Source of the DNA: a virus | Length of the DNA stretch: 64,000 nt | Strand: one strand, 5' to 3' | Virus record (IMG/VR): IMGVR_UViG_3300046522_000512 | Coordinates: 20,791-84,790 of that record | In this document: positions 4,174-28,877 of the stretch, in pieces | How the letters are laid out: every line of letters starts with the position of its first letter | How positions within the stretch are numbered: position 1 is the stretch's first letter | Notes under the pieces: model-generated | The model's input: only the letters and a program-made list of their open reading frames with translations | The model's database searches: none | Told to the model about the DNA's origin: nothing | Made by a program: the position numbers and the translations under genes

Positions 4174-4411
4174 CCGCGACCACGCTGGTCTTCTGCCGAA
4201 GCAGAGCCAGCACCGCATCCGCGTCGCCCGGGTCGAGATCCCGCCGGGGCCCGAGGGGGCCGAGCAGCACCGGCGTGCCGGCGTACTGCTCGACCATCGC
4301 CCTCACCCGGCGGGACCCGGTGACCGGGCCCCCGCCGGGGATCTGGACCTGATAGGCGGAACCGTCCTCCATCGTGCCCGTCACCAGCATGCTTGCCTGC
4401 CTTCCTGTCAC
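4163..4411 (-). CDS. Small protein coupled to the giant gene, unknown function
   Basis: 82 residues from GTG (MTGRQASMLVTGTMEDGSAYQVQIPGG). The start overlaps the stop of the giant gene by four bases, so it is translationally coupled and probably made with it. It contains PVTGSRRVRAMVEQYAGTPVLLGPLG and looks like a compact beta-rich domain; no family recognised. A second in-frame ATG eight codons later is an alternative start. Its place as the last gene of the giant transcript suggests a chaperone or structural partner (inference). Confidence 0.65.
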   Translation of the reverse strand: MTGRQASMLVTGTMEDGSAYQVQIPGGGPVTGSRRVRAMVEQYAGTPVLLGPLGPRRDLDPGDADAVLALLRQKTSVVAVRP

Positions 4412-7400
4412 CGAGTGGCGAGCAGTCCCAGAAGGAACGCCCGCAGGTCGTCATCCCTGTACCAGTCGCCCGAGAACATCGTCGCGAGCCCGCGAGCCAC
4501 GATCTGGTCATCGGTGACGTCCTCCGCCCGGCCGCCGAACAGCCGCTCCAGCAGCGCATCCAGCGTGCTGCGCCGGGCCCCGGGCCGTCCGGTGTGGGTC
4601 CGGGTGAACCCGAACACCTCCTGCGCGGCCAGCAGATCCGGGTAAGAGCGCTGAAGGTGAGCCACCAGAGCGTTCACCGCAGTGCCGCGGCCGCCGTCGC
4701 CGAGGTCAGCGACCGTGGCCGTACCGGAGTCGGCGTCGTACGAGCCCGCGTCACCATCGACCGCGGTCACGAACCGTGCCGTGCGGTCCGCGAGCCACTC
4801 CCGCGGCACGTAGCCCGCAGCATCGGCCAGCGCTCGCGCCGCCGCCGGGTCGCTGCTGTGGCTCAGCGTCAGCCGGTTCCTGCCACCGGGGCCCATCTCT
4901 CGGACCTGCGCGAGGGTGTCACGCACCGCGCCGGGCAGCGCGGCCGTGTACGCCTGGTGCAGCCGGTCGGCTTCCTGCCGGGCGTGCTGCGCTTCCACCT
5001 GCGCCGCGGCGATCTCCGGACCGAGGTCCGGGGCGCCCTGGCCGGCCGCCACCGCCCGCAGGTTCCGAACACGGGCCTCCGCCCGGTCCTGGTAGCGGCG
5101 GGCGTGCCGCACCGTGCCGTGCGGGTCGTCGCCGAGCTCCGGCGCGGCCGCCATCAGCCGTGCCACGACATCGGCGTCCACGTCCGTACCGGCCGCGCGC
5201 ACCGCGGCGAGATGCCGCAGGGCGTGCCGCCCGGGTCCGCGGTCCGCAGCCCGGTCCATCGTCCAGCCCGTGCCGTCCTGCACGCCGGGGAGCTGACCCG
5301 CGGCGAGCGAGGAGCGGGTGGCCAGCCGGTACCAGCGACGGCGCCGGGAGACCTGACCGAAGTGGCCCGGGGCGGGCAGCAGCCGCGCCCAGTGCGCCAC
5401 CTGGTCGGCCAGCGACATGCCGTCCCCGTGCCGCGGCAGGGAGCGGGCAGCGGCCGCGATACGGCGCAGGCGCCGAGTCTCCGGCCACGATCGCACCCGC
5501 CGCACCAGACCCTTGCGGAACCGGTTGATGGCCTTGAACGGGTACGCCACCGCGGCGGCGAGACCCTTGAGGAACGCGGCCACCAGCTCCACGACCCGGC
5601 GGGCGATCTGCACGAGCGCCGCCGTGATGCGGGCGAGCATTCCCGGCCGCTCGCCTTCCGGCAGCTGGGCCGCAATGCGCTGCGCTGCACCGTCACGGCT
5701 GTCAGCCATGCGCTGCGCGAGCCGGGCGACGATCGCCGCGCGCCGCTCCGGAGTCAGCAGCCCCGTATCGGCATCCCGGAGCGCCTCGCCCACCGCACCA
5801 TCGACGTGGCCCTGCACCTCGTCGTCGACTGGGGAACCCGCACCCGCGTCGGGCTCGGGAGTGGCCTCACCATCGGCGCTGCCGTCCCCGTCGCCCACAC
5901 CGGTGTCGAGGTCGGGCTCATCCGACTCCGACCGGTTGCGCAGCGACTCCGGGATCAGCCGCAGCAGGTCCGCAGCACGCGCCGCGGTGTCCTCGGGCGA
6001 CTCCCCGTCCAGCGGCTCCAGGTCGTCGAGCGTCTGCACCGCAGCCTGCACCGCGTCGATCCGCGAGCGCATCGCCATCCGCCGCAGCTCGGCGAGCAGC
6101 CGCTCCCGCTCGTCGCCGGTGATACCCGACCCGTCGACCACCGCCTGCGCGTCCCTTTGCACGCGCCGCATCGCCGACCGGAGCGCGCCCGCCGTGACCT
6201 TCGCGGCGATCTGCTCCCGGAGCTGGTGAATGCTGCCCGGGGTCTGAGTCCCTTCCACCGCGGCGTCGACCACGGCCCGCGCGACCAAGTCGCCGTAATC
6301 GGCCGTGAACGCCGCCGTGTCCAGGCCCGCGTTCGGGTCCCGAGCTTCGGCGTCATCGTCGGCCGGAACCTGCGGCTCGGGCAGTTGGTACAGCGGGTCA
6401 CCGGCGGCCATGGTCCGCTCGGAACGCTGCCCGTTCCCGTCTTCCACCGTCAGGACCCGCAAGCCGCCCGGGGCGTCCTGGACGTCCGTGACGCGGTACG
6501 AGGCCATCTCGTCGGGGTTCGTCTCGTCCGGCAGGGCGATGGTGTCACCGACACCGACCGAGCCGACCGTGCCCGGCTCCGGCCGCCCCGCCGGCGCGCT
6601 GTCCGCATCCGGGTTCGGGGCGTCGGCCTCGCCGGTCAGGCGGCGCTGGTTCGCGGCGAACCAGGCAGCCGCGGGCCGTTCCCGGTCCATGACGCTCACC
6701 GACTCGGCAAGGGATCCGCCGAGGATCTGGAACGTCCTGGTGGTGGACGGCCTACCGGCCAGGCCTTCGAGCTCGACCGTGACCTGCTTGTCGCCGACGC
6801 TGACGGACTGCACCTTGCGGGTGAACCAGTCGCTGCCGTTGGCGCCGGTGCCGAACACCAGGTGATCGCCCGGCTTCAGCTCGGTCGCCTTCACGATGCG
6901 GCGGTCTGCCTGATCGGCGACCCCACCGCCTTCAAGGGCGCTGTCGTAGGGCAGGGGCCGGAACGGGGCGCGGGCGCCCACGCTGTCACTGATGAACCGG
7001 CCGTCAGCGTTGGCCAGGAGGAGATTGACTGTCTTCCCGTCCTCGCTTCGGATCCCTTCCACGACCAGCAGACGGGAGGGCTCCCCGTTGACCGGCGCCA
7101 CGATCACATCACCGGTACTCAGGTAGCGCGCTTCGGTGGTCATACCGCCGTCGTCGTTGCTCGTCCCGGTCTGCCCGGCCGCCTGGTCGAGGCGGTCAGC
7201 GGCCCGCTTGGCTGCGCGGCCCTCCGCCGTCGATGGGTCGGCGTTCTGGCGAAGGCCTTCAGCTATCGCGGCCGCCTGCTCGGGGGTGACGGGCAGGTCC
7301 CGGGCGATCCGGGCCGCGCCCTGCTGCGCCTCGGGGGCGTCGCCGGGGGCGGTGCCCCGGTCGGCGACCGCGTCGCGCTCTTCCGGTGCAAGCTCCGGGT

Positions 7401-10400
7401 CCACGGTCGGCCCGGTCACGGGCTCCACCGTCGGGGCCGGCTCGCGGCTCGTGATCGGCTCCTTGCGCCGCTGGGCGGCCGGTGTGCCGTCCTGCCCGTT
7501 GTTGTCGGTGTCGCCGATGACGCGCAGGTCCGTGACGGGCATGGGCTTCATGCCCTCCGTGGTGGCGACGGTCGCGGTGTCGCCGTCCAGTTCCTCCACG
7601 GTGCCGAGCATGTTGCCGTCCCGGTCGCTGACCCAGTTGCCGACGTTCACGCGGTGCCCGTCCGTCGTCCAGCCGGACGGGCGCGCCGCGCCGCCGTCGA
7701 TGACGTTGAGGGTGCTCGGCTCGTGCGCGTCGTCGGTGCGGTCGTCGCCGAACTGCACCCGCACACCGGCGGAGTTCGCCCCGACCACGACGCCTTCGCG
7801 GCCGTCGTCGTCGGTCACGACCGACCCGGGGAACAGGCCGTTGCCGCCGCCGTCGGTCGCCACCCGGTCGGCAACCCGGCCGGTGAGGACATCGGAGTCC
7901 GCGCCGGTCTGCACCGTGGTGGCTTCGTCGCCGATCTCGCGAGTGGCGCGGGCCGCCGTGGCGTCCGGCTTGACCCACACCGACTCGCGCTTGGTCGAGC
8001 CGTCCGGGGTCTCGGCGATCAGCACGCGGACCATGTCCTGAACGCGCCGGGCCCGGACCGTCGGAACCTCCGTGGGCCCGTCCATGACGTACCCGGCCAG
8101 GGTCCGCGCGGTGCCGCCCTTGGTGATGCCGTCGATCCGCACCACGTCACCCTGGCGGATGTCGGAGACCTTGACCCACTCGGCGGGCCGCCCGTGCACA
8201 GGCTCGGGCACGGCCGGGCGCTCCGGCTCCGCTTTGTCCGCAGACGGCTTCGGGGTCTCCTCGGCCGGGGCGGGCCGCTCCTTGGCCGGCGCCGGGGTCT
8301 TCGCCGCCGGGGCGGGTCGGTCCTCGGCCGGAGCCGGGGCCGGGGTCTCCTTGGCCGGAGCCGGGGCCGGGGTCTCCTTGGCCGGAGCCGGGGCCGGGGT
8401 CTCCTTGGCCGGGGCGGGCCGTTCCTCGGCCGGGACCGGGGCCGGGGCCGGAGCCGGGGTGTTGGGGGCGGCCGCTGGGCGCTCCTCCGCCGGGGCCGGG
8501 GTGTTGTCGCCGGAGGACGTGGCCCGCTGGGGGGCGACCTCGGGGGCCTCGCCGACCTGACGGCCGTACCTGTACTCCTCCACCGGCAGGTTGACGTCGT
8601 CCGCGGACATCAGGCGCTGCGCGTTGTCCCCGACGGGGATGACGAACGTGTCCCCGGCCAGCTGGTGGGCGCCCACCACACTGGAGGCGACGTGGATGCG
8701 CACAGCCTTCTGCCGCTTCTTGTTGATGGTGATCGAGGCCGGACGGGGCTCACCCACCACGTAGCCGGTCCTGCGGGTAGTCGCTCCCGGGTAGCGGTTG
8801 GTGATCCGGCCGTCGAGGTCCACGATGTCGCCCGCTCGGAGGTCGGTGACGGGGACGCTCTCCGCCCTGTCCTTGCCGCCCTCGTCCACAAGGTCGTCAA
8901 GGAACTGCTTGGAGGCCCGAGCCTTGCTGATCTCGTGGTGCATGGCTCGCGGGTCCTCGGGTCGCAGCACGTCCAGGTAGTCACGGATCTCGTCGGCCAG
9001 CCAGCCGGGGCCGAGGATGTGCTTGTGCTTCAAATCGGCAGGCTGGTACTTGTAGTGAGTGGCGTCGAGCCACCGCAGCTCGTCGTGCAGGTGGTCCAGG
9101 TCGTCCGCCACGTTCCCGCTGATCGTCTCGCCACGGCCGAGGGCGTCGGCCAGCGCGCGAATCTTCCGGTAGCGCTCCATGTCCGCCGGGTTGTCGTTCA
9201 GCGACTCCAGGCCGCGCAGCCCCTCCTCCTCGGGCGGGAACCCGAGGCTGAGGTTCGAACCCCTGAAGTCCCAAGCGATGTCGGGGTGGACGATGCTCAG
9301 GTCGGGCTCGCCCTGTTCCATGTCCCGCAGTACGAGATGGGCGATGGCCGCATCCCGGGTGGAGAAAGTGCCGTTGTGGTAATGGTTGCCGAGGGGCATC
9401 TCGCCCTCCCACCGCTCCTCGGGCGGTGTCATGTAGAAGCCGGTGGTGTGCGGTGCGCGCACGCTGCCGATCAGCCGGCCGTTGCGCCAGACCTCTTCGC
9501 GGCCATGGTCCGAAACGAGCTTCGGGGAGGGCGTGAACCCCTGCGCAGCGAGTTCCTGTATGCGCTCGGGTGATCCGAACAGGGCGCGCTCACCCTCTTC
9601 GCTGATGATGCCGTTCTCGCCGGTCTGGTACTGCCTCAGCTCGTCGTGCGTCGGGATGCGCCGACCGTCCACGGTGCCCGCACGGCGGCCCTCTCCATGT
9701 GCGGCGTTGATGCCGTACTGGGACGTGGGCGCCGGGGCATCACCCGTGGGGGCCGCGCCCTGACCGTCGCCCGCGCCTGGCGCGTCGGAGCCGCCCGCGG
9801 AAGGCGCGTTCGAGGATGAGGCGCCGTCTTGGCCGCCGACCGGCGTCGCACCGCCCTCGCGCGGCACGTCCGCCCCGCCGGCCGCAGGGGCGTCGGTGTC
9901 AGGGAGGCGTGCGACCTTGTCGTCCGCGAGGATCGTCACGCCGTTGCGGACGTTCGGCTTGGCGTCGGGGTTGTCGCTCAGGTGCAGGCGCCAGGCCTTC
10001 AGGCGCTCCCCGTCGCGGGTCGCGGTGACACTGCGGGCCGGGGCGAGGAGGAAGCCCTCCCGGGTCACCTTGCTTCCGGCGGTGTTCTGCGTCTCGACGC
10101 GCACTCGGTCACCGCGCTGCGGCTCGTTTGGGTTGACGATCTCGGCGCGCGGCTCGTCGCTGATGTCCGGGACGGACGGCGTCCGCTCCGGCCGCTGCGG
10201 CGTGCTCTCCGCCGGCTCGGGGACGTCGGTCCGGTACTGCACATCAGCGCCCTCGGGGATGGCCACGATGTCGCTCGGGTGGAAGCGCCGAGCCTGGTTC
10301 TTGACCTTCCAGTAGCCGTCTCCCTGCCAGTCGTTGGAGCGCTCCACCACGACGTTCATGTGCTGAGTGCGCTTGCCGTCCTGGCGGGCGACGATCCGGA

Positions 10401-13400
10401 AGCGGTCCCCGATGCGGGGCTGGATCCGGGAGCCGTCAACGGCCTGCCAGCCCTCCGGCACGGGCACACGGGACGCGCTGGCCCGCTCCTCCCAGGTTTC
10501 CATCCGGCGCTTCAGGTCGGAAGTGTCCTCGCGCCCCGGGTTGCCCTCCGGGAGCCGCTCCGCCAGCTCGCCGTCGTAGAGCGCCGCCGACTCCCTCTGC
10601 ACTGCGTCGCCGCCCTTGAGCGGATCCCGCGACTCGACCTCAATACGAACGCCGCCGTTGAACTGCCTGGTGTGAAGCACACGGCCCACCAAGTGCTTCG
10701 GCTCGTTGTACATCTGGTCTGCCCCAACGATGTGCACCCAGTCCCCGACCTGGATCTCGGACGCGGGAACCATGTCGCCGTCGTAGCGCTGCCGCAGCGC
10801 CGCGAACTCGTCGGGCAGCCCCGCGGCAGGGTTGGCGTTGTCGGCCTGGCCGGTACCGGCGGGCGTGCGACCGGAGCCGTCACCGCGGCCGCGGCCGCTG
10901 CCCGTGCTGGGAGTGCTGCTGTCGGGGAAGTTGGGCAGGCCCATGCCGAGGCCGCCCGGGAGGCCGCCACCGCCGCCGTTGGGGGCGCCGTTGCCGAGCT
11001 GGTTGCGGCGACGCCGGCGCCTGTCCCGGTCGTCATTGTTCTCGGACTCGTCGGGCTTCGGCTCGCCGTCCCCGGACTCATCGGGCTTCGGCTCGTCGGT
11101 GCCCGGCTCGTTCGTCTGGGACTCGCCGGTCTCGGGCGCGTTCGTGCCTGACGCGCCGGTCTCGGGCGCGTTCGTGTCGCGGGAGAGCCGCTCGGCCCAC
11201 TCATCGCTCTCGCCGTCGGCGACATAGATGTGGTCACCTGCGTGCCCGTGTGTCGAGAGGAGCAGCCGCCAGCCGTCGACCTGGCTGCCGCCGCGCCACA
11301 TCTGCGCCCGCTCCGGCGGCTCCAACAGGTCGCCCTCGGCCACGTATATGCCGCCGATGAACTCGTTCGACCCGCGGACCCGCAGACGTTCGCCTTCCTG
11401 CAGCGAAGCGACATCAGCGGCCTCGCCGTCCGGGCGCCGGGAGATGGCTTGGGCGGCTTCCCACTTACGGGCGTCGTCCTCGTTTTCCTTCTTCACCCAC
11501 TTGTCGCGGAGCTTGGCGTTCGCCTTCTTGCGCAGAGCAGGTTCGGGCGCGGTCAGGTGAACGACCCAGTCGCCCGGGTGCTCGGTGTGGCTGCCCGTGG
11601 AGAGGCTGGTCGTGCGCGGCCTGCCCTCCTTGCCGTCGGCGTGCAGGTTGACGACGACATGGGCGGCGTCCAGACCGTCGAACCTGTTGTCCTTCGCGTA
11701 ATAGCCTCTCGCCGGGCGGTAGAGGTCGCCGGGCTTGAGGTTCTGCAGACGCGTCCAGCGCATGCCGTCGGGGAGTTCGGCCTCTCCGACGATGAACTGA
11801 CCGTCACCGGTTCTGGGATCGGCGACAGGAAGGTACTCGCCGCCGAGGGCGCTACGCCTGTTGTTGTAGTGGTGGTACCCGGAGAACGACTGATCGTCGT
11901 TCTGCCCGCGCCAGGCGTGGAAACCCGCGTAGTACGCCTTGACGTCGTCACTCGCCGAACTGAGGGATCGCCCCACTTCGGGGAAAGCTCCAGTGAGCCC
12001 GTTCGCTCTCTGCTCGGGGTCGTCGCCACCCGCAACGCCAACGAGGAAGTCCTTGACCTGCTGCTCTGTGAGCCCGTGCCGGTCGGCATCCGCCACAGCG
12101 GCAGCAATCTGGTCCAGCACAACCTGCCGGCTCCGCTCGCTGTCTCCGGCCCACAGGGCACCCAGCTTCTCGGCGGCATCCTTCATTCCGGATCGCGTAG
12201 CGATGCGCGGGATCATGATCTCCCGGCTTGCGGCACGGAACTCTCCGGCAAGCCGCTGTGTGGCCTCTCGCATGGAGGCTGCATGACCGGCGAGGAAATC
12301 CCTCTGGTCGCCGTCGTACTGCGCGAGCAGATGACGCGTGTTCTCGTCGAACTGGTCCAACGGGAAGGCGTCACCCGCGTCACCGATCCACCGGGGAGCC
12401 GCCTTCGGGCTGAGTGGCCTGGAGGCGGGGCCGGGCATGTTCTTGACCCGGTCCAGAAGCGCATTCCGCGGACCGTCCGGGGCCGGGTTCGCCCACACGC
12501 CGGCCCACTTGCGGTACTCGTCGACCTCCTTCTGGTCGGGCCGGGTGTATTCGCTCAGGTCGAGCCCGGGAACGTCCGGGATCTCCAGTTCGGGCACCGG
12601 GCCGGGAGGAGACATCCGCTCGACCTCATGACCGGCAGGGACTTCGATCACGTCGTCCCACGCATGCACGGCATGCGGCGTGTCCGCGATGTGCACCTGC
12701 CACGACATGACCGGGTCGTCGCGGCGGGGGCCGTCTCGCCTCGCCGCCGCGCTGACGACGTATCCCTCGCGGGTGACCTCGTTGCCGTCCGCGTCCGGCA
12801 CCGTGGCGCGGATGTACTGGCCGGGCTTGACCGAGTCGATGTCGACGGGGCCGAGCGCCGGGGCTTCGGGAGCGGGCAGTCGCTGGATCTTCTGGTCGGC
12901 GGGGATGTCAACCTGGTTGCCGCGGCCGGGCGACTGGTTCGGCCCGTTCCCGATGTACAGGATCCACGCGTCGAAGTCCCCGTGCCGGGGGCGGTGACCC
13001 TTGCCCTTGCGGGGGTTGGCCAGGAGGTAGCCCTCGTGGACTCTGGTCCTGTCCAGGGTGTCCGACACTTCCACGCGGACGTAGTCGTTGATGCGGGCCT
13101 GGTCCGCGTCGATGGTCTCCCCATCGGCCTCCGGCTCGGGACTGGCCTTGCCCGGGTCGCCGTCGGCGGCCGGGCTGCTGTCGCTGCCGTTGAGGTCGGC
13201 CAGCTCTGTGCGGACCTGCGCCGCGTCGAGCTTGACCGGGGCGTCGGTCTTCGACGTCTCCCGGTGCCCGTACGGGACCCAGTCCGGGGCGTCCACGTCG
13301 CGCGGGACGTCCGGCTCGCCCGGAGGGGGCATGGTCTGCCAACTGTGCCAAGCGCGTGACGCCTGTGCACGGATCTTGTCCGCAAGCCTCTGGAGAACTG

Positions 13401-22400: not shown

Positions 22401-25400
22401 GGAGCACGGACGGCTCATTGACCATCCGGGCGACGGCGGCGTGCTGGTGGGGGTGCGGGTCGAACCACTCGACCAGGCCGGGGATGGTGCGGCGCTGCCC
22501 GTCGTAGGAGCGCGGCGCCATCGAGTTGAAGTTGTCGTTGTAGAAGCGCTTGTGCTTCTCGGCGCGGTCGGGGTCGGCCCACAGCCAGTCCGTGAACGCC
22601 TCTCGCAGGAGGGTGGCCTTGGCCTGTGCGTCCTCGGTGGCGTCCTTGTCGTAGACGCTCTTGGCGTTCTCGCCGTGGCCTTCCTTCTTGGTGACGACGA
22701 TCTTGCGGTTGGTGAGGATCGCCTCGGCGATCTCCAGAGCGGTGTAGCCCTTCGCGCTCCACGTGTGTGCGGTGCGCTCCGCGATGCTCTTCTTCGCCCC
22801 GTCGGGGGCGTCGACCGCCCACAGGGCGCCGCCCTGCCAAGACACCGTGATCCGCTGGTCGCCGAGGGTCTCGCGGAGGAACTGTTCGACCGGCTCACGG
22901 CCGATCCAGGAAGCGCCCATCGGGGCGGCGATCTCGCCGGTGGACAGATCCGGCGGGACGACCCGCTCAAGGTGCTCGACGTTCAGGTCGTAACGGCTGT
23001 CGTCTGCCGCGGCGCGGCGGGCCTCATCGAGCTTCGTGCGGACGTTCCCCGACAGGTAGTCCGCGGCCGTGACGAGCTCGCCGTCCGGGGCCTGGAACGC
23101 CATCGGGTACTCGACGCCGGTGTCCGAGTCGACGGAACGAGCCGTCAGCAGTCGCGCGATGGCAGTGTCTGCGTCGGTGCGCATGACGCGGGCGAGGCCG
23201 TCGGCGGTCAGCCGGCCGTCGGTCTCCAGCACGATCGCAAGAGCGTCCTGCGGGTCGTCCGCGTACTTCGCGATCTCCCGGTACGTGCCAAGCCGCTTGC
23301 TGAAGATCGGCGCCTTGGTGGTCTTGCGGGTGGTGTCGTCGAACTCGTCGAGCGGCGTGATGTTCGACATCGTCGGGTCGTTGGTGAACAGGCCACCGCG
23401 CGCCGCCTTCTTGCGGTACGTCTTCTCGACCTTCTCCCCGGTGTCGGGGTCGATGGCGGTGCGCTTGGACCACGTGAACCGGTTGATGGCGCCGAACTTG
23501 GAGTGGTAGGCGTCGTACTGCTTGTTGAGCGCCTCCCGGAGTCGCTCGATCAGGGACTCGTCGGCGTCCTTGCGGTTCTCCTCCGCAAGGAGGGACTGGA
23601 ACGTGTCGCGGATCGCGAGGAGCTGCCGGGCCTCGTTCGCCTGCGTCTTGAAGACGGGGAAGGGGTGCACCATGCCGTCGCGGACCTGCGTGAAGGACCC
23701 GTCCGGTTCGGCCTGCACGTGCCCGTCGACCCGGGAGGAGCCGGGCGGCAGAAGCGTGACCTTGCTGCGGCCCTCCGTGTCGGGCTTGTAGGCGAGGCCT
23801 GCCGCCTTCGCCTCCTCGACGGTCCGCTTCAAGGCCCGTTCCAGGTTGGCGATGGTCTTGCCGTCGCCGTCCACGCGCAGCTCGTTGTCCCGGTGCATGC
23901 CGTGGCCGACCGCGAGCTTGCCGAGGATCTGCTGAGGGTTGTCGTGGAAGTAGCTGTTGTAGAAGACAGGCGGCTCGACCTGATCCGGCGGCGTGCCCGG
24001 CTTGGGCGGCGTCTGCCCGGGAAGGGCGTACGTGGGCAGGGAGTGCACCCACATCGGCGGGTCGTTCTGCGTCCGCTCCGACGGCCGCTTGATCTCACCC
24101 TTGCGGTTGCGGCCCGATGTGAACGACTTGCTCTTGTCGCGGCGCCGGAAGATCAGAAGGTCCGTCATCACCGACGTGCCCGCGGTGCGCTGGTGCGCGC
24201 CGGACGGCAGACGGATCGCGCCGACCAGCTCGCCCTTCTCCGCCATCTCCATACGGGCGGCCTCGCTGCGCCCGCCATGGCCGTCCATCGTCAGCGACGA
24301 CGTCACGACCGCGACCAGGCCGCCACCACGGGTCAAGTCCAGGGACTTGAGGATGAAATGGTTGTGGATCGAGTGGCCACCCTTGTTGTGCACCAGGTCG
24401 GGCACCTTGTACCGGCCGAATGGCACATTGCCGACCGCCGCATCGAAGGTGCCGTTGGGGGCGCGGGTGTCACCGAACGACTCGTGCCGGACCTCGGCGT
24501 GCGGGTAGAGGGCCTTCGCGATGCCCGCGGTGATCGAGTCGACCTCGACACCGGTCATGTGCGTGCCGTCGGGCGCGTAGCCGATGAAGTTGCCGACGCC
24601 GGATCCGGGCTCCAGCACACTGCCGGCGTCGAACCCGAGGTCGGTCAGGGCCGCCCACATCTGCTGCACGATCTGCGGGTCGGTGTAGTGCGCGTTCAGC
24701 GTGTTCGCGCTCGCGTCGGCCCACTCGGCATCGGACAGCAGCTCACGCAGCCGCTTCGCGAGCGGCTGGAACTGCGCATCCGGCTGCGGCTTGAAGATCT
24801 GGGGGACCGCACCCCACCCGGAGTACCGGGCGAGTTCCTGCTGCTCGGCCCCGGTCGCGGGACGGTTCTCGTCCTGGAGGCGGCGCAGGATCTCGATGGC
24901 GGCGATGTTCGCCTTGGCCCGGTTGACCGGGCTCGACGGAACGAGAGTCTTCCCGTCGGCAGGGGGCTCGTAGGCCGGAGCAGTGGCCTGCTGCTCCGGC
25001 GTACCGAACGCTACGGGAGCTGAGGCAGCTCCACCCGCGGCATGTCCTTCGTCTCCGTTCCCGGATCCTTCGGCATCCCGTACACCATGTCGTGCAGCAC
25101 CCGTTCCCGGGCCCGCATCCGGACCGACTTCAGCTCGCGAGCCCGCGCCACCGCGTCCGTGCCCTCCTGCAGCGGAGGAGCCCACTCCTCCGTCAGTTCC
25201 TCGATCTGCTGCACGATCTCGTCCGACCGCTCCCGGGCGAACTCCTCGAACGCCTTGTCCGTCGGGAACCGATCCACTTCCAGCGGCCGGTACGTCTTCC
25301 AGAACGTCCGAACGAGATCCACGTACGACACTGTCATTGCTCCTCTTGTGCTGTTCGGACAGGGCCTGTCGAGCGACGCTCACGTTCTCACGCGCCAGGC

Positions 25401-28400
25401 GCAGGAACTCGGCCGCATGGGCATGGTTGGCGCCGCCGCGGCCGCGCAGGGCGCGCTGCATTCCGTCGAGGGCGCCTTGGAACTGCTGGATGGCTTCCGA
25501 CGGCGTGATGTCACCGCGCTTCAGCGCGTCCACGGCGTCACCGGCAGGCGCCGCCAGGTCGTGCGCGGCGGGCGCTCCACGCAGCTCGGTCAGACTGTTG
25601 ATGACCGGGCCGAGCTGCTGCTCCGCCACATCGAGCGCTTCCACGATGTGGTTGCCCGCGGCGGTGGTAGCCGCCATGTCGGCCAGGCTCGGGCCCTGGT
25701 CGGCGTTGGGGGCCGGCTGCGGGGCCGCCTCGGGGGCCGGGGCGGGGGCGTGGTCGGTGTCGTGCTCGCGCACCAGGTCCGCGAGGGCCGCCTCCTCGGT
25801 GAGGAACGGCTTCTTGGAGCTGTAGCGGGTGCCGTGACCGAGCCGGTTCCACGTCCAGCGACCCGCAGAGCCCTGGAGCGTGGCGTCGTCCTGGTTGCCG
25901 CCATCGACGGCGGCGGGGCGGTGGCCCGACTCATTGTGCGCGCCGAGCTGGACGCGGGAGAGCTGCTGTGCGTACGCCTGTCCGTCGCGGCGCTGGGCCT
26001 CGGCGAGGATCGCCGTCTTCTCAGCCTGGGCGCGGGCCCTCTTCGCCTGGTCGCCGGAGGACAGGGTGTCAGACCAATCCTGGTCGGCCTTCGCAAAGGC
26101 GGCGTCGAGGTCCTCGCGCGACACCTGCGACCAATCCCGCTGCTCGGGCTTCGCCTGCGGGGCGTCGGGGTTCGGGGTGTTGGTGCGGTCGCCCGCGTAC
26201 GGGGTGCCGTCGGGGCGGGTGATGTCCTTCAGCGCGTGGGAACGCGTGCCCCGCTCGGCGCGCACGAGCACAGAGCCGGAGTCGCGGTTTACGGCCATGA
26301 CCGAGCCGACACCGTCAGGCGAGTTGACCTCGTCGCCGTTGTTGGGGAAGTCGCCTTCCGGCGTGGCCTGCGGGGCGCTCGGCGCGGCCGCGGCCGGGGT
26401 AGCCGCAGGGGCCGGGGCGGGCTTGTTCTGCTGCTCCTGCCGCTTGCGGTACTCGTTCGCGGCGTGGGACTCCGGGGCGCCGTGGGCGATGTCCCACTGG
26501 CCCCGCTGGTCGTCCATCTGGTTGCCGAAGGCCCGGCTCCACACCCCGACCCGGTGCCGCTCGCGGGGGCCCAGCTTCGGATCCCACCAGTCGACTTCCT
26601 GGTCCGGGTTGGACGACTCGCGCACCCCGCGGCCGACCTGCATGGCGAACTGGCTGGCATCCTCCCAGGACTTGAAGCCCTGCCCTGCGCCGCCGGACCA
26701 GCCGAGGGCTCTGCCGTCGTAGGCGCGGTGCACATCGAACCGGTGGGGGCCGCGCTGGACGATCGCGAAGCCGAAGTGGTTGGCCATGGTGACGTTCCAC
26801 TTGGGGTTGCCCGCCATGGCGCGCACCCCATCGCTGTACACGCGATCCAGGCCCGGGGCGCCGCCGTTCTTCCAGTACTCGCGCAGCTCACCGGTGTTGC
26901 CGGGCTTACGGAAGCCGACCTTGTCGTCGCCGTTGTTGCCGCTCGGTCCGACGTGGCCGACGGCGATGTTCTGCCGGGGGATGCCAGAGGTGTCGGCGAT
27001 GGACTGCGCGGCCTGCACGAGCGGGTTCGGCCGCTCGGTCGGGGCCGCGGGAGCCGCGGGAACGGCCGGGGCCGGGGCCGGCGGGAGGACGGCGGGGGTC
27101 GCGGGAGCGGGCGTGTTCCTCGCGGCCGCGCCCTCACGCTTCTTCGCGGCCTTGTCCGCGAATACCTTCTTCGCCTCCACGCTGGCCTGGCGCACCATCT
27201 CCTGGCCCTCGGGAGACTCCAGGCGCTGGTGATAGCCGGGGCTGTCCCAGTCGAACGGCTTGTCGCCGAGCTGGGCGGCCTCCAGGCGGTTCGCGAAGTC
27301 GACGGCTTCGCCCTTGCGCTCCGACATGGCCAGGCGGACGCCGCTGCCGGAGACGATGACCGCGTATCCGGTCTTGCGCTGGCCGTTCTTCTCCACGGTC
27401 ATCTTGGCGATGACGAACCGGCCGCCGCGGGAGAGCTGCGGCCTGTCGAGCTTGGCGAACAGTGCGGCGGTTTCCCGCTGGTGCCGCTCCTGCTGGGCCT
27501 TGTCCTGCGTGTACGGCTCCAGATTGCCCTTCCGCCAGTAGGCCTGAAGCTCGTCGAGGTTCTTGAAGAGTTTGCCGCCCAGGGCGCTGGCCGGTCTGGC
27601 TGCCTGCGGCCGCATGGGCATGCTCGTGTTGCCTTCACCCGGGGGCAGGCCTCCGCGAGAGCCGGGGCCCTTCTGGGGGCCGTCGGAGCGCCAGGCCCGG
27701 GGAACGAGCGGCTGACTCTTCGGGCGGTTCTTCCTCGGCGCGGGGATCGGCTCGTTGCCGTGACTGGTGAAGCGCTCGTGAGCGAGGCGCAGCGCGTCAC
27801 GCAGGTTGGCGGCGTACCGGGCAACCTCGTCCTGGCCGTCGTTGTGGGCGATCTCCGACAGCTGGTTGGCCTCGTCCGCGAGCCAAGACAGGCGTTCCAC
27901 GTCGTCCGGGTTGAGCTGGTCGTTCTTGTCGTCCCGGACGTCGAATCCGGTACCGGCGTCGGCCAGGCTGTCGTACAGCTCGTCGGCTTTGGCGTTGTGC
28001 CAGTTCGCCGGCCAGACGCCTTCCAGGTCCCCGAAGTACTCCTCACTCAAGTCGCGCACGGCGCGCCGGGCGTGGCTGGTGTCCCAGAACTGGTGGAAGT
28101 GGTCGTCTACCGGGGGGCCGGCGGCGCGCAGCGCATCACCGTTGCCCATGACGTGCCGCTCGTGGGGGGTGTCGTCCGCGTTCCTGTCGATGGGCAGCAG
28201 GTCGGGGAAGCTCGGCATGGCGACGTTGCCGCGCCGCCGGGGCGGCAGAGGGTCGCCGTCGTTGTCGTGGATGTTCGTCATGACGCGGCCCTGCGGGACG
28301 AGCGGCTGATCGTCGTCGTGGTTCGGGTCATCGGGGCCGGCGCCGAGATCCTGGCCCTCGATGTCCTGGCCGATCGGCTTGCCCTGGTCGTCGCGCTCGT

Positions 28401-28839
28401 GGACGGTGTCCGGGGTCTGGCCGTTGTCACCGCGGTCGTTGGCGGGGTGGTCGGCGCCCTCGGCTGTGTCGTCCTTCGCCGGGTCGTGCGGGCCGTGGCC
28501 AAGCCCGCGGTTCTCATCGCCGTAGCGCCGCTCGTCCTCGTCGCGGACCTTGGACTTGCTCTTGGTCGGCGCGGAGCCGTCCGGGCGGCTGACCATGGTC
28601 AAGCGGGCGGCGTTGATGCGGGAACGCTGGTGGGTGGCCAGGTTCTCCACGAGGACGTCGCGGCCACCGAGCGCGCGCAGGACGCGGGCCATGCCGCCGC
28701 CCCACATGCGGGCGATACCGCCCGTTTCCACGAACCTGCCCTTGGAGTCACGGGGGTGCAGATCCGGGTTCCACGTGCGGCGCAGCCTCTTGGTTTCGAG
28801 GCTGGCGAGGATGCGGTCTACGGCGGTGGTGATCGGCAT
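4408..28839 (-). CDS. Giant polyvalent protein: N6-methylase, SNF2 helicase, UvrD helicase, SH3-like repeats
   Basis: An open frame of about 8,143 residues. Order: HPRDSKGRFVE near 28-40; unknown domains to about 1165; N6-adenine methylase-like region about 1335-1590 (EPGSGVGN, catalytic-type NVPFG near 1471); SNF2/DarB-like SF2 helicase about 2110-2760 (EVGAGKTA near 2150, DEAHMYKN near 2321, QRNGRVIRQG near 2697); winged helix near 3215-3290; UvrD-like SF1 helicase about 3925-4540 (LAGTGKSS, WDEAQD, TTAHKSKGLE, VAVTRAT); then many SH3/Tudor-like modules (GDxVxx..GxVxx) with Pro/Ala linkers; a hydrophobic helix near 7740 and a compact C-terminus. Multi-enzyme 'polyvalent' proteins such as P1 DarB are carried in virions and protect incoming DNA; the location between portal and protease fits. 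Start ATG 28839 is chosen because a class-2 element ends just before it; GTG 28857 would overlap that element. Caution: at 25011-25337 this frame is shadow-like and another gene is coded, so it may really be two genes. Confidence 0.8.
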   Translation of the reverse strand: MPITTAVDRILASLETKRLRRTWNPDLHPRDSKGRFVETGGIARMWGGGMARVLRALGGRDVLVENLATHQRSRINAARLTMVSRPDGSAPTKSKSKVRDEDERRYGDENRGLGHGPHDPAKDDTAEGADHPANDRGDNGQTPDTVHERDDQGKPIGQDIEGQDLGAGPDDPNHDDDQPLVPQGRVMTNIHDNDGDPLPPRRRGNVAMPSFPDLLPIDRNADDTPHERHVMGNGDALRAAGPPVDDHFHQFWDTSHARRAVRDLSEEYFGDLEGVWPANWHNAKADELYDSLADAGTGFDVRDDKNDQLNPDDVERLSWLADEANQLSEIAHNDGQDEVARYAANLRDALRLAHERFTSHGNEPIPAPRKNRPKSQPLVPRAWRSDGPQKGPGSRGGLPPGEGNTSMPMRPQAARPASALGGKLFKNLDELQAYWRKGNLEPYTQDKAQQERHQRETAALFAKLDRPQLSRGGRFVIAKMTVEKNGQRKTGYAVIVSGSGVRLAMSERKGEAVDFANRLEAAQLGDKPFDWDSPGYHQRLESPEGQEMVRQASVEAKKVFADKAAKKREGAAARNTPAPATPAVLPPAPAPAVPAAPAAPTERPNPLVQAAQSIADTSGIPRQNIAVGHVGPSGNNGDDKVGFRKPGNTGELREYWKNGGAPGLDRVYSDGVRAMAGNPKWNVTMANHFGFAIVQRGPHRFDVHRAYDGRALGWSGGAGQGFKSWEDASQFAMQVGRGVRESSNPDQEVDWWDPKLGPRERHRVGVWSRAFGNQMDDQRGQWDIAHGAPESHAANEYRKRQEQQNKPAPAPAATPAAAAPSAPQATPEGDFPNNGDEVNSPDGVGSVMAVNRDSGSVLVRAERGTRSHALKDITRPDGTPYAGDRTNTPNPDAPQAKPEQRDWSQVSREDLDAAFAKADQDWSDTLSSGDQAKRARAQAEKTAILAEAQRRDGQAYAQQLSRVQLGAHNESGHRPAAVDGGNQDDATLQGSAGRWTWNRLGHGTRYSSKKPFLTEEAALADLVREHDTDHAPAPAPEAAPQPAPNADQGPSLADMAATTAAGNHIVEALDVAEQQLGPVINSLTELRGAPAAHDLAAPAGDAVDALKRGDITPSEAIQQFQGALDGMQRALRGRGGANHAHAAEFLRLARENVSVARQALSEQHKRSNDSVVRGSRSDVLEDVPAAGSGSVPDGQGVRGVRPGAVGRDRAADRGTDGGVGSSAAGGHGRGGAGSRAEVGPDAGPGTGAARHGVRDAEGSGNGDEGHAAGGAASAPVAFGTPEQQATAPAYEPPADGKTLVPSSPVNRAKANIAAIEILRRLQDENRPATGAEQQELARYSGWGAVPQIFKPQPDAQFQPLAKRLRELLSDAEWADASANTLNAHYTDPQIVQQMWAALTDLGFDAGSVLEPGSGVGNFIGYAPDGTHMTGVEVDSITAGIAKALYPHAEVRHESFGDTRAPNGTFDAAVGNVPFGRYKVPDLVHNKGGHSIHNHFILKSLDLTRGGGLVAVVTSSLTMDGHGGRSEAARMEMAEKGELVGAIRLPSGAHQRTAGTSVMTDLLIFRRRDKSKSFTSGRNRKGEIKRPSERTQNDPPMWVHSLPTYALPGQTPPKPGTPPDQVEPPVFYNSYFHDNPQQILGKLAVGHGMHRDNELRVDGDGKTIANLERALKRTVEEAKAAGLAYKPDTEGRSKVTLLPPGSSRVDGHVQAEPDGSFTQVRDGMVHPFPVFKTQANEARQLLAIRDTFQSLLAEENRKDADESLIERLREALNKQYDAYHSKFGAINRFTWSKRTAIDPDTGEKVEKTYRKKAARGGLFTNDPTMSNITPLDEFDDTTRKTTKAPIFSKRLGTYREIAKYADDPQDALAIVLETDGRLTADGLARVMRTDADTAIARLLTARSVDSDTGVEYPMAFQAPDGELVTAADYLSGNVRTKLDEARRAAADDSRYDLNVEHLERVVPPDLSTGEIAAPMGASWIGREPVEQFLRETLGDQRITVSWQGGALWAVDAPDGAKKSIAERTAHTWSAKGYTALEIAEAILTNRKIVVTKKEGHGENAKSVYDKDATEDAQAKATLLREAFTDWLWADPDRAEKHKRFYNDNFNSMAPRSYDGQRRTIPGLVEWFDPHPHQHAAVARMVNEPSVLLAHEVGAGKTAEMAMGVMELRRLGLVKKAAMVVPGHMLEQFRHEFAEIFPESVANNRILTASSEDLAGKGRREFIARAAAGDYDAIILTQTAFESIQMRPEIQEDYIGRRVERLREKILRQKDADGEGNDTRLVKRMEASLKSLEEKLDKKLSGLKDAAGLHFEDMGVDYLVVDEAHMYKNLDTPSSVAAIDGSNRASDLEMKLEWLRKRSDTGRVVTFATATPVANSIAEVHTMMRYLRPDLLEELGMLDFDDFASTFAQMVSAVERSPDGSYKEKTRLAAFQNVPELLRLWRSFADVKTAEDLDLPVPGIVGGKAVTITMPMSPAQEEYEVLLRARAARLEGGNVDPKEDNHLKLLGDGRMAALDPRLLDPSLGGGNKLPTVADNVVRIYGETKDAVFPTSKTDATPHDTPGGLQIVFLDLGTPKDPGRSKKRKKKAGSGTDADEMDASLTDDGSESLSRDDEETYTDFSTYDELKSLLIARGIPAEQIRFIHEAKDDAAKARLFNDARSGKISVLLGSTAKMGTGTNVQLRAVALHHVDAPWRPADVDQRNGRVIRQGNANDEVAIFQYATERSTDAKFWEAIARKAKFIRALMRGSLSERVVEDIGPVNFDADEVSALTAGDPHLIAQAQLKPLVNRLRGRFNAYRRSQEGFKEAIRDSAQAEEWTKQYVAQLQQAVEKRKPTRGDDFNATIGTTDFEGGDARDDARNALNTALRAVYADGMRRPYDENAAGIPIGRVGGLEVTARFVRTRSIGNQWYNTVRVDLPQVPGAWQDYEDHELIDHDGKPRTLPLSRIENSIANIDERIKRAEHRRADKKRAAEQAAGRIGKPFELATVFEESTRQLDLLNEIMRLKAQPTVTEEDTAKRNKQIAALDAELRAMSNDQEDVLAQVAARDVNLVPKTPAPPAISQDDKGRVKWIWPTTEARDAARAKKLAAKREAFLARTSSSAQAAPAQPDALGMNNADLKEETDTLAERIAKGEASDKDVVRHAGLEREQQRREKNRAARAAAEQSSTPSGQNSGETVTLDPQKVRADLAEISPAADRTGAEPEGQDAPKETPASQPEAEPSLTTAQARALESALNSGLGPDGQQIEAHPNVIRRLLRLGYADERSKPRVGGGSIKYYVMTPEGERRARALRDEREQARTARLAALDAADEAPQERNSQTPQASGTPGTGPQPPSPRPAPQAPAAPRPAPKPADTVRPFANEREWRAGITGVEGAQGQVTSAAETTWGRDMPAPARSLRDNVFQAIAAQESGDTEDTAASLAGAREDAQRLRNRLTDTDRQGMEAPLDNFMRVTDDYLARHAVTVEKRRREDAQRDRIEREAQEQFRRSLTGTPAPAPETPAKGSDAPSTGRAWQDGDFQPGDTVAFSNRNAMNMQQSGEFVRSANQDTAVLRGRNGAEREVPYIDIMGRTRDGVFEENPPAAGTPTTPLPQPTPSADDGKQFESGDKVHYWYDESGPAQRKLGTVVETTDDGVVVDGPAGDRETIPFNRVTKAPERQRSADAPQPAPASSDLPMSALFAKNKATSRHALDSLKAGYQEQFGDEPRDRVGQLSNELFTFLDQQWGEAAGGVFGPASETALHLADALHDQEMTPEERSGRFGAQVADVQRELRHRRDVIARQQGAPDSAGKAPRPSAPSDARPVPATPPADMDGDQIGEEIDTLDEQIAPLQDATDSVDLAYRLRLEQRRFELEEEERRRWSPTPEYGEDGKVIPRKRGDVIRDRLAGYGLNDAETTGLVHRVEDLPAAKAGGYSDEEWARIDTAAAANEAYPPTEEQGIIIEGAARRGLNMAVMALAGTGKSSTLKMLSHRMPGKKIVYLAFNRSVANEAREAQARGEYAKNLTASTANGYAAKVADKRLNNRLPNHKAGGFKKLSAQQIADRMRWYDTVKAGDRDLAPGGAATVAELMIKTWAKSSDAEMGPQHITGAKTAQEARDLFDAVKPLADRMWANLSDPTKGDAGQDLPMDFDYIVKMWAVGGFKIDADTLYWDEAQDVNPVMEGVVRAAIDQGVQVVAVGDSNQAIYGFRGASDALSKLPVDARATLTQSFRFGPAVANVGNRFLRLLGTRMRLKGFDRKDSRLGNIKPGDETMVIARTNAGVALAAVEALAAGRTIAVSGGVKDLQEFVTAARALANGERTSHAELARFNGKSYEDILDEVNSDPELQQLKSLFALLDKHPDEIDKLMESGAQAADTENVGGRVWVTLDWNDPKVDQLKRWLGDAKTNGVGKLLYDRESRRYYYEPGKRTESFTKNGRTINYQVDNKLSLEDAKAKIDAHLAKLYPQEDTGGGRLVDEKKPHDLLVTTAHKSKGLESEKVRIADDFRGPEYDDNGHIKWDTVPEDEDLRVAYVAVTRATDVLDAGSLGWVFEAVNDGDPTQPPTGEYRRDWVLDDFKPGDRINFQEEDGTPQVGEVARLDGPGLIARYDVDGQQREQYIGTAQVQRRNGQDRPQLPVASEDELNQAVAEGRYPEASGGAPAKLDAGKVRDELAALKNDQPSPETTEPRKEANTGSPAAPDPATGIITGDQVPPGPDATAADKEAYRRRFDIRYQVGYYVDYRNDDGETVTARVVNTRGNPILRDDAGHEFRADPNWYADHFIAVRKDDGSALPRPAWADTLPDGFRAVPPNEIQPGHVIREGSSSDKLWGSRFVMAKTVDEDGRTTLYTAQLATQGGGGLGLDPRQLVVLDETEESRQLAEEALHRRDVKESAKLQGLTLPTELPAGPNRQAQEGSTAREWHNGDTAVTPNGEGRVILAEDGKVVVLDGGGAPRTYEPRQLSMPGEARTAEHNAPTAQEAARGEKRQQDLESAQTPEGLGLFYGARLANLDLEEGHGQVLDEDGNVVGWIRRRGTVWHGQDARGGQTGGGTAQSASDPLYGPREAAQAVDSNRRDNGMRVALKDTAWRHLRPEEGRDTVQYSELSDAQREEFFKLAKEWAKSSDHELSEAAKHWGQGGLNYRQMNRLAEEATATADSVDASTPEGRRRQAVLQRLADKIRAQASRAWHSWQTMPPPGEPDVPRDVDAPDWVPYGHRETSKTDAPVKLDAAQVRTELADLNGSDSSPAADGDPGKASPEPEADGETIDADQARINDYVRVEVSDTLDRTRVHEGYLLANPRKGKGHRPRHGDFDAWILYIGNGPNQSPGRGNQVDIPADQKIQRLPAPEAPALGPVDIDSVKPGQYIRATVPDADGNEVTREGYVVSAAARRDGPRRDDPVMSWQVHIADTPHAVHAWDDVIEVPAGHEVERMSPPGPVPELEIPDVPGLDLSEYTRPDQKEVDEYRKWAGVWANPAPDGPRNALLDRVKNMPGPASRPLSPKAAPRWIGDAGDAFPLDQFDENTRHLLAQYDGDQRDFLAGHAASMREATQRLAGEFRAASREIMIPRIATRSGMKDAAEKLGALWAGDSERSRQVVLDQIAAAVADADRHGLTEQQVKDFLVGVAGGDDPEQRANGLTGAFPEVGRSLSSASDDVKAYYAGFHAWRGQNDDQSFSGYHHYNNRRSALGGEYLPVADPRTGDGQFIVGEAELPDGMRWTRLQNLKPGDLYRPARGYYAKDNRFDGLDAAHVVVNLHADGKEGRPRTTSLSTGSHTEHPGDWVVHLTAPEPALRKKANAKLRDKWVKKENEDDARKWEAAQAISRRPDGEAADVASLQEGERLRVRGSNEFIGGIYVAEGDLLEPPERAQMWRGGSQVDGWRLLLSTHGHAGDHIYVADGESDEWAERLSRDTNAPETGASGTNAPETGESQTNEPGTDEPKPDESGDGEPKPDESENNDDRDRRRRRRNQLGNGAPNGGGGGLPGGLGMGLPNFPDSSTPSTGSGRGRGDGSGRTPAGTGQADNANPAAGLPDEFAALRQRYDGDMVPASEIQVGDWVHIVGADQMYNEPKHLVGRVLHTRQFNGGVRIEVESRDPLKGGDAVQRESAALYDGELAERLPEGNPGREDTSDLKRRMETWEERASASRVPVPEGWQAVDGSRIQPRIGDRFRIVARQDGKRTQHMNVVVERSNDWQGDGYWKVKNQARRFHPSDIVAIPEGADVQYRTDVPEPAESTPQRPERTPSVPDISDEPRAEIVNPNEPQRGDRVRVETQNTAGSKVTREGFLLAPARSVTATRDGERLKAWRLHLSDNPDAKPNVRNGVTILADDKVARLPDTDAPAAGGADVPREGGATPVGGQDGASSSNAPSAGGSDAPGAGDGQGAAPTGDAPAPTSQYGINAAHGEGRRAGTVDGRRIPTHDELRQYQTGENGIISEEGERALFGSPERIQELAAQGFTPSPKLVSDHGREEVWRNGRLIGSVRAPHTTGFYMTPPEERWEGEMPLGNHYHNGTFSTRDAAIAHLVLRDMEQGEPDLSIVHPDIAWDFRGSNLSLGFPPEEEGLRGLESLNDNPADMERYRKIRALADALGRGETISGNVADDLDHLHDELRWLDATHYKYQPADLKHKHILGPGWLADEIRDYLDVLRPEDPRAMHHEISKARASKQFLDDLVDEGGKDRAESVPVTDLRAGDIVDLDGRITNRYPGATTRRTGYVVGEPRPASITINKKRQKAVRIHVASSVVGAHQLAGDTFVIPVGDNAQRLMSADDVNLPVEEYRYGRQVGEAPEVAPQRATSSGDNTPAPAEERPAAAPNTPAPAPAPVPAEERPAPAKETPAPAPAKETPAPAPAKETPAPAPAEDRPAPAAKTPAPAKERPAPAEETPKPSADKAEPERPAVPEPVHGRPAEWVKVSDIRQGDVVRIDGITKGGTARTLAGYVMDGPTEVPTVRARRVQDMVRVLIAETPDGSTKRESVWVKPDATAARATREIGDEATTVQTGADSDVLTGRVADRVATDGGGNGLFPGSVVTDDDGREGVVVGANSAGVRVQFGDDRTDDAHEPSTLNVIDGGAARPSGWTTDGHRVNVGNWVSDRDGNMLGTVEELDGDTATVATTEGMKPMPVTDLRVIGDTDNNGQDGTPAAQRRKEPITSREPAPTVEPVTGPTVDPELAPEERDAVADRGTAPGDAPEAQQGAARIARDLPVTPEQAAAIAEGLRQNADPSTAEGRAAKRAADRLDQAAGQTGTSNDDGGMTTEARYLSTGDVIVAPVNGEPSRLLVVEGIRSEDGKTVNLLLANADGRFISDSVGARAPFRPLPYDSALEGGGVADQADRRIVKATELKPGDHLVFGTGANGSDWFTRKVQSVSVGDKQVTVELEGLAGRPSTTRTFQILGGSLAESVSVMDRERPAAAWFAANQRRLTGEADAPNPDADSAPAGRPEPGTVGSVGVGDTIALPDETNPDEMASYRVTDVQDAPGGLRVLTVEDGNGQRSERTMAAGDPLYQLPEPQVPADDDAEARDPNAGLDTAAFTADYGDLVARAVVDAAVEGTQTPGSIHQLREQIAAKVTAGALRSAMRRVQRDAQAVVDGSGITGDERERLLAELRRMAMRSRIDAVQAAVQTLDDLEPLDGESPEDTAARAADLLRLIPESLRNRSESDEPDLDTGVGDGDGSADGEATPEPDAGAGSPVDDEVQGHVDGAVGEALRDADTGLLTPERRAAIVARLAQRMADSRDGAAQRIAAQLPEGERPGMLARITAALVQIARRVVELVAAFLKGLAAAVAYPFKAINRFRKGLVRRVRSWPETRRLRRIAAAARSLPRHGDGMSLADQVAHWARLLPAPGHFGQVSRRRRWYRLATRSSLAAGQLPGVQDGTGWTMDRAADRGPGRHALRHLAAVRAAGTDVDADVVARLMAAAPELGDDPHGTVRHARRYQDRAEARVRNLRAVAAGQGAPDLGPEIAAAQVEAQHARQEADRLHQAYTAALPGAVRDTLAQVREMGPGGRNRLTLSHSSDPAAARALADAAGYVPREWLADRTARFVTAVDGDAGSYDADSGTATVADLGDGGRGTAVNALVAHLQRSYPDLLAAQEVFGFTRTHTGRPGARRSTLDALLERLFGGRAEDVTDDQIVARGLATMFSGDWYRDDDLRAFLLGLLATR
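8260..8470 (-). repeat. Tandem 27-bp coding repeat (PAPAPAKET-type linker)
   Basis: Within the giant gene a 27-bp unit is repeated about 2.6 times almost exactly (from 8345) and is flanked by degenerate copies, encoding PAKETPAPA-type repeats. It forms a long Pro/Ala/Glu linker between two SH3-like modules. Such repeats vary in copy number by slippage, so this linker may differ in length between relatives. Confidence 0.7.
25011..25337 (-). CDS. Nested 108-aa gene in another frame of the giant ORF
   Basis: MTVSYVDLVRTFWKTYRP then a charged, helical protein (KAFEEFARERSDEIVQQIEE, VRMRARERVLHDMVYGM) ending VELPQLP. Codons here are strongly G/C at third positions, whereas the giant frame through the same bases gives low third-position GC and an Arg/Gly/Ala-rich string, so this is the coding frame. 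AGAGGAG lies just before the ATG. Upstream the giant frame is coding-like right up to this ATG; downstream it becomes coding-like again right after the TAG. Small proteins of this kind often sit directly before phage/plasmid methylase-helicase genes, which is what follows. I do not know its function. It implies either overlap inside a true fusion or three separate genes with damaged boundaries. Confidence 0.75.
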   Translation of the reverse strand: MTVSYVDLVRTFWKTYRPLEVDRFPTDKAFEEFARERSDEIVQQIEELTEEWAPPLQEGTDAVARARELKSVRMRARERVLHDMVYGMPKDPGTETKDMPRVELPQLP

Positions 28840-28840
28840 G

Positions 28841-28877
28841 CGGCGGACCATGCACACCGGGGATGGTTAACGTCGCG
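28841..28877 (-). promoter_or_regulatory. Class-2 phage promoter-like element before the giant gene
   Basis: Minus strand GACGTTAACC, then CATGGTCCGCC starting 17 bases after GACGT. The ATG at 28839 follows the GGTCCG by the same number of bases as in the terminase-small-like gene and the gene at 32575, implying a leaderless transcript. No Shine-Dalgarno is present. Confidence 0.6.

Follow-up and report, generated by a model that had tools for sequence, protein, structure and literature searches.

Polyvalent proteins, single polypeptides that combine several disparate activities and have DarB as their archetype, were described by Iyer et al. (2017; PMC5512222); the same work described OJH72069.1, a 12,242-residue protein of a Streptomyces viridifaciens plasmid that carries both SNF2 and UvrD modules (PMC5512222). 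P1 DarB belongs to the phage head and has an N-terminal targeting signal; its first 30 residues suffice for packaging, it is present in about 40 copies, and as a head component it shields DNA in cis against type I restriction (PMC9024508). Virions of phage JC1 yielded 51 unique peptides of its DarB-like protein, which has 4,515 residues (PMC9144972). Internal head proteins, P1 DarA for example, are trimmed by prohead proteases (PMC12810830), and the virion RNA polymerase of N4 (vRNAP), a giant chain injected with the DNA, is believed to lose its fold as it is ejected (PMC12633501).

The window analyzed here, a 64,000-nucleotide stretch of an 84,790-bp virus record, holds on its minus strand a real and unusually large member of the polyvalent, DarB-like class. 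The first-pass annotation had reported an uninterrupted 24.4 kb frame of about 8,140 residues at 4408-28857, lying between the portal operon and the prohead protease, and we find the same: one open frame of 8,149 codons counted from GTG, with no internal stops in a window free of N letters, placed between the portal gene and the genes for the S78 prohead protease and capsid protein (Table 1). The ATG at 28839 is more probably the start than the GTG at 28857, because the only cysteine of the frame falls in codons 1-6, ahead of this ATG, and because the RefSeq start of the orthologue in Streptomyces sp. NBC_00536 is the equivalent ATG. This start gives a product of 8,143 residues and 881.8 kDa.

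Table 1. Features of the giant gene and the adjoining head genes in the window (aa, residue positions in the product; a slash within a motif marks the putative cleavage point).
Feature	Coordinates	Strand	Basis
Giant polyvalent gene, no cysteine, 882 kDa	4408..28839; open from GTG 28857	-	frame, GC3, dN/dS, relatives
N-terminal leader closing with SLETK, predicted prohead-protease site / capsid-targeting leader	28789..28839	-	ExK conservation
Constant N-terminal tag, WNPDLHPRDSKGRFVETGG, and small domain	28498..28788	-	kept in all relatives
DarB-type adenine N6-methyltransferase core	24058..24720	-	motif I EPGSGVGNF aa 1416, motif IV NVPF aa 1477
SNF2/SWI2 translocase, complete motif set, aa 2156-2713	20578..22470	-	Pfam SNF2-rel_dom 5.8e-7, Helicase_C 4.9e-6
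UvrD-like SF1 helicase, aa 3962-4521	15238..17160	-	GTGKS, DEAQD, GDSNQAIYGFR, TAHKSKGLE, VAVTRA intact
Two tandem b1-type barrels, aa 5253-5414	12616..13101	-	iterated profile search
Constant SH3/KOW/Tudor-like barrel block, aa 6887-7136	7450..8199	-	AlphaFold2 mean pLDDT 83
Constant C-terminal domain, 338 aa, closing with DDLRAFLLGLLATR	4411..5424	-	72% mean column identity, 40 sequences
Portal protein, MuF-like C-terminus, QTK/ALP site near aa 545	29749..32208	-	Pfam Phage_portal 2.3e-39
Acidic head-block protein, 190 aa, begins MDYRFEVK/ALPP	2422..2994	-	
S78 prohead protease fused to 2'-5' RNA ligase/phosphoesterase domain; six ExK sites	351..2333	-	Pfam 4.2e-13, 2e-11
HK97-fold major capsid protein, N-terminal end (rest beyond window)	1..184	-	EGK/SIFSL site aa 130-133

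The GC content at third codon positions is 0.81-0.95 in all 400-codon bins of the gene (0.42-0.58 at position 2), dN/dS against four relatives is 0.11-0.87 and thus below 1 in every segment, and the same frame runs end to end in independent genomes. These observations rule out a chance GC-rich open reading frame and confirm a real gene. An artefact of GC-rich sequence or a chimeric assembly might be suspected from the long antisense ORFs within the gene and from its mosaic nature, as it is around 96% identical to one relative (G002) across most of aa 810-3150 and nearer to another (G003) for most of the remainder. However, the single frame recurs in independent isolates, in complete circular plasmids and in one phage isolate, with the GC3 and dN/dS values given above, and the two parents match at around 96% and 93%, not at 100%; this explanation is already refuted and we give it next to no weight. 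Since the parents are 4-7% different and the closer parent also changes elsewhere in the record, with more than one switch, we likewise reject, as unlikely, an assembly chimera of the G002 and G003 contigs. The antisense ORFs, among them one of 3,837 residues at 13510-25023 (+), vary in length among relatives, and we dismiss them as genes and attribute them to the GC-rich codon usage.

The N- and C-terminal modules of the protein lie in one open frame in all 12 family members read and in 40 of 41 further Streptomyces records, the exception ending at a contig end; in each of these 41 records the C-terminal module falls in one frame, 3,293-7,515 residues long. Some of the 53 records are near-duplicates, and they therefore represent fewer than 53 independent cases. 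Frame length across the family is 3,293-8,178 residues, and in the related genomes we saw one frame rather than separate genes with ordinary stops and starts. The close relatives encode 8,175 (G003), 7,694 (G001) and 7,240 residues (G002 and G004) in single frames, as does the circular plasmid NZ_CP107821.1 of NBC_00536 (5,253 residues), with 4,897-6,289 residues in five other Streptomyces plasmid records. The S. zaomyceticus protein has at least 4,453 residues, its annotated start being late, with the leader upstream of it. The same gene is present in the isolated phage Gilgamesh as gp48 (4,624 residues, annotated as 'hypothetical'); our literature search found no publication on this phage.

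A profile of the C-terminal 338 residues matched 40 viral and 7 genome loci, every named organism among them being Streptomyces. Among PLSDB plasmids the module occurs in only 8 records, none of which is one of the large linear plasmids with UvrD-containing giants. The mobilizable S. cellulosae plasmid NZ_CP109251.1, which has type IV secretion genes, carries the C-terminal module in a pair of small genes (19509-20908) and no other part of the giant. Contigs of 2.7 Mb and 0.87 Mb, from Streptomyces sp. NBC_00620 and S. mashuensis respectively, contain the module far from their ends, so that some members may be integrated prophages. Linear Streptomyces plasmids encode giants of 10,905 (L131, 10161-42277) and 8,746 residues (L130, 1-37428), the latter adjoining a 4,569-residue toprim-domain protein. 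The suggestion of the first-pass annotation that the protein is among the largest encoded by phages is plausible; larger polyvalent chains are found on Streptomyces linear plasmids, with 10,905 residues and with 12,242 (PMC5512222).

Where annotated, the genes run from portal (portal-MuF in Gilgamesh) through one small protein, the giant and two or three further small proteins to protease-hydrolase and major capsid protein, and the synteny of portal, giant, protease and capsid genes is kept in seven complete plasmids and in Gilgamesh. The capsid protein matches 9lbm, 3qpr and 1ohg in the PDB and Pfam Phage_capsid at 3e-29; the C-terminus of the portal protein matches Phage_Mu_F at 2.9e-4, under the cut-off of that profile. 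A ParA-type ATPase is encoded in the record and the relatives are complete circular plasmids carrying ParA/ParB, portal and capsid genes; these relatives and the ATPase place the element among the phage-plasmids, extrachromosomal replicons with both virion and partition genes. Between the giant and the 190-residue head gene, two small overlapping genes at 3671-4173 (+) look, from their sequences, like an antitoxin/toxin pair, and the matching slot in NBC_00536 is filled by two small genes, also on the opposite strand. The NBC_00536 plasmid (NZ_CP107821.1; L010, 5261-7110) also carries genes for 6-carboxytetrahydropterin synthase, queE and folE, which suggests 7-deazaguanine metabolism or DNA modification beside a DarB-type methylase. 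In the S. zaomyceticus phage-plasmid NZ_CP107934.1 (L037, 666-3062), tgmA/tgmB ATP-grasp RiPP genes lie directly upstream of the portal gene.

The domains proposed in the first-pass annotation are all present in the protein: the motifs of an N6-methyltransferase (MTase), complete SNF2 and UvrD motif sets, and several small SH3-like barrels. PHROG 10089 matches across aa 1179-3048 at 1264 bits, which bears out the proposal of a polyvalent, DarB-like multi-enzyme protein, and the N6-MTase fused to SWI2/SNF2 retains its catalytic motifs, as in DarB-like proteins. Methyltransferase, SNF2, UvrD and barrels thus share one polypeptide, encoded in a phage-plasmid beside genes for portal, S78 protease and HK97 capsid, as expected of the polyvalent class. 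The helicase shows the Walker A, DEXQD, GDxxQxIYxFR, V and VI motifs of UvrD/Rep-like SF1 enzymes and scores 33 bits with Pfam UvrD-helicase against a cut-off of 23. The best match to the NCBIfam equivalogs for UvrD, Rep and PcrA was 22.6 bits against 1144, with a C-terminal-half query that cuts the domain; we call the module UvrD-like and do not file it as UvrD itself.

Comparison with P1 DarB shows the same MTase-SNF2 chain, with an N-terminal capsid-targeting signal known in P1, and a gene that adjoins those for portal and prohead protease, although in P1 it is divergently transcribed. DarB is shorter (2,255 residues) and has 9 cysteines, the UvrD and constant C-terminal domains were not seen in it, and its blastp match to the core of the giant covers only around 208 residues at 29% identity. 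JC1 gp69, from a Bcep22-like podovirus and a member of PHROG 10089, shows about 32% identity over 1,570 residues of the MTase-SNF2 core; it too is a giant without cysteine, and was found in virions, but it has other flanking modules and comes from another type of phage. OJH72069.1 is likewise a single gigantic chain with SWI2/SNF2 and UvrD-like modules on a Streptomyces mobile element (PMC5512222). By description, the class to which it belongs is set in conjugative-transfer-like contexts, whereas our protein is encoded in the head operon of a tailed phage and possesses constant modules of its own at both termini. Gilgamesh gp48 occupies the same gene slot and its terminal modules are about 50% identical to those of the giant, but its cargo has no recognizable MTase, SNF2 or UvrD.

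Two regions are constant across the family, the N-terminal 120 and the C-terminal 338 residues, with cargo that differs between members. SNF2 lies within the giant frame in 38 of 53 records and UvrD in 10; both are present in 7 and neither in 12. The 'defence or replication kit' of the first-pass annotation therefore fits the cargo of this member and not the family as a whole. The arrangement of constant ends and exchangeable cargo looks new. Such a pattern would also suit a chiefly structural head protein, the ends of which serve as internal scaffold, core or head-size determinant, with the enzymes as optional passengers; P1 DarA is reportedly a parallel for such a role. The C-terminal end is kept in all 53 records and the N-terminal end in 52, the remaining one being truncated, even though 12 are without SNF2 and UvrD; the cargo of Gilgamesh and S. 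anulatus matches almost nothing in Pfam or PHROGs; and dN/dS in the N-terminal tag and in the C-terminal domain is among the lowest of all segments. Yet wherever the enzymes occur, purifying selection acts on their catalytic motifs, which are intact, and a variable cargo of 3,000-7,000 residues would be superfluous for a mere scaffold. We consider a chiefly structural role unlikely.

Structures were predicted from alignments of the window sequence with loci from viral and genome collections. The C-terminal domain is predicted with a pLDDT of 90.4 and a pTM of 0.87; it has no fold match in the PDB at E<=0.001, two distant matches among viral models (BFVD), both to phage proteins without a stated function, and weak, scattered matches in Pfam. 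A zincin-like metallopeptidase was considered and rejected, as no HEXXH occurs in the five giants scanned and the PDB search gave no fold match at that threshold. With no close solved fold, any role for this domain is a guess. Iterated profile searches found four further b1-type barrels, at aa 5818, 6245, 6672 and 6899, besides the tandem pair. For the barrel block at aa 6887-7136 the best Foldseek matches in the PDB are Spt5 KOW and Tudor domains, with a low whole-chain TM of about 0.2, and the predicted resemblance is one of single domains only.

The N-terminus of the giant carries an ExK motif in all 51 leaders examined. ExK lies 13-37 residues from the read-frame start in the 12 members read, and the 39 further leaders all have it immediately ahead of an HPRD motif, where shuffling would give 7%; in many the residue after the lysine is R or V, not A or S, and the match is weaker. 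The capsid protein has EGK/S in 12 of 12 genomes, at most 2 residues from the mature N-terminus of HK97 according to one alignment with that protein (1ohg residue 17 at query position 151; HK97 full chain 385 residues, mature chain 282). In every member read the protease domain closes with an ExK followed by A, S or T, in the form TR[SA][LI]EVK then A or S, and the protease of this record has six ExK sites where 0.09 are expected. The portal-MuF junction has a site of this type in all 10 cases, with E or Q as first residue, and the small head protein starts with a looser form of the pattern. In one relative (G019; L115, contig 92687-94683, frame 1) the stretch directly upstream of the giant gene encodes another protein, some 330 residues long, which begins MPETKSAAWNAALHPRDRFGRFIETG; this protein has an intact zincin motif, HEIGH, and is unrelated to the giant, and thus the tag is not confined to the latter. 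The sharing of the ExK leader with capsid protein, portal and protease suggests capsid targeting followed by removal of the leader, the cleavage site being predicted from conservation and the HK97 alignment. This leader appears to be a new finding.

If the prohead protease cut further into the chain, the giant could be a polyprotein processed into separate enzymes inside the head. Low-complexity linkers do separate the modules, and the trimming of P1 DarA offers a precedent (PMC12810830). The rest of the giant, however, shows no excess of ExK sites (1 observed against 1.63 expected), and the positions of internal sites of this type are not conserved between members; we reject the polyprotein reading on this ground and regard it as very improbable.

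The protein has no cysteine in its 8,143 residues, where about 47-61 would be expected from the cysteine content (0.58-0.75%) of the remaining genes in this record and in three related ones. With codons 1-6 set aside, 11 of the 12 members read are also free of cysteine and NBC_00536 has one; the MTase-SNF2 core has none in 8 of 9 members read, against 1.5-4.2 per 1000 residues in three plasmid homologues. Cysteine is similarly absent from N4 vRNAP (3,342 residues read), T7 gp15 and gp16, and the virion-proven DarB of JC1; N4 vRNAP is another enzyme, of 3,500 residues, with no known sequence relation to the giant. Among 52 other viral DarB-like frames of at least 2,500 residues, 22 have no cysteine and the pooled frequency, 0.80 per 1000, compares with 12.4 for the remaining ORFs at these loci, a contrast that is probably inflated as the background ORFs are uncurated. 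There are exceptions: P1 DarB has 9 cysteines in 2,255 residues, T7 gp14 has 1 and several viral frames have 8-26. The case of DarB indicates that absence of cysteine is not required for packaging, and since cysteine is likewise missing here from the capsid and tape-measure proteins, the signal may mark residence in the virion and not ejection. In a non-exhaustive literature search we found no published statement of this signature, and the absence of cysteine in the giant looks new.

The cysteine counts also bear on the proposal that the protein is an enzyme which is not packaged and which the phage-plasmid produces inside a new or lysogenic host to serve replication or anti-restriction. Related SNF2 or UvrD chains are found on conjugative and linear plasmids with no virion genes nearby (PMC5512222), so these enzymes need not be injected. 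Against this, the gene sits in a head operon and its product has a protease-type leader, and five non-virion relatives have 1.2-4.1 cysteines per 1000 residues where the giant has none; we judge an unpackaged enzyme to be quite improbable.

Taken together, these data lead us to favor, as the likelier account though with some reserve, a polyvalent protein that resides inside the virion of a Streptomyces phage-plasmid and is made and used as one 882-kDa chain. Packaging in the virus head and injection with the DNA are probable, given the late-gene position by portal and protease, the predicted leader, the lack of cysteine and the virion location of the JC1 and P1 proteins; we infer them from sequence and by analogy. 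In the mechanism we propose, the 17-residue leader would bring the giant into the prohead, where the S78 protease would remove it after the ExK, and the constant C-terminal domain might anchor or organize the protein within the head. The remainder would stay intact, pass through the tail in unfolded form together with the DNA, and refold in the new host. The methylase-translocase could then track along the incoming DNA and shield it from restriction in the manner of P1 DarB, UvrD could act on single-stranded or damaged entering DNA, and the barrels may tether the chain to DNA or to partner proteins.

As relatives keep both ends and exchange the middle, the giant may be a natural protein-delivery chassis. 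We put this forward tentatively, as a possibility that we do not yet favor: a protease-cleaved N-terminal capsid tag, which is also found on separate proteins such as the G019 zincin, and a constant C-terminal domain would flank a cargo bay, and MTase-SNF2, UvrD and other modules would be swapped in it by recombination within one reading frame, with absence of cysteine as a signature of virion-resident, ejected giants. If this is correct, the injection of a near-megadalton enzyme would be testable in the cultured phage Gilgamesh with S. lividans as laboratory host, the leader would represent a minimal and apparently portable capsid tag, and the lack of cysteine combined with a prohead-protease leader would provide a sequence signature for ejected proteins among the unannotated giants of phages.
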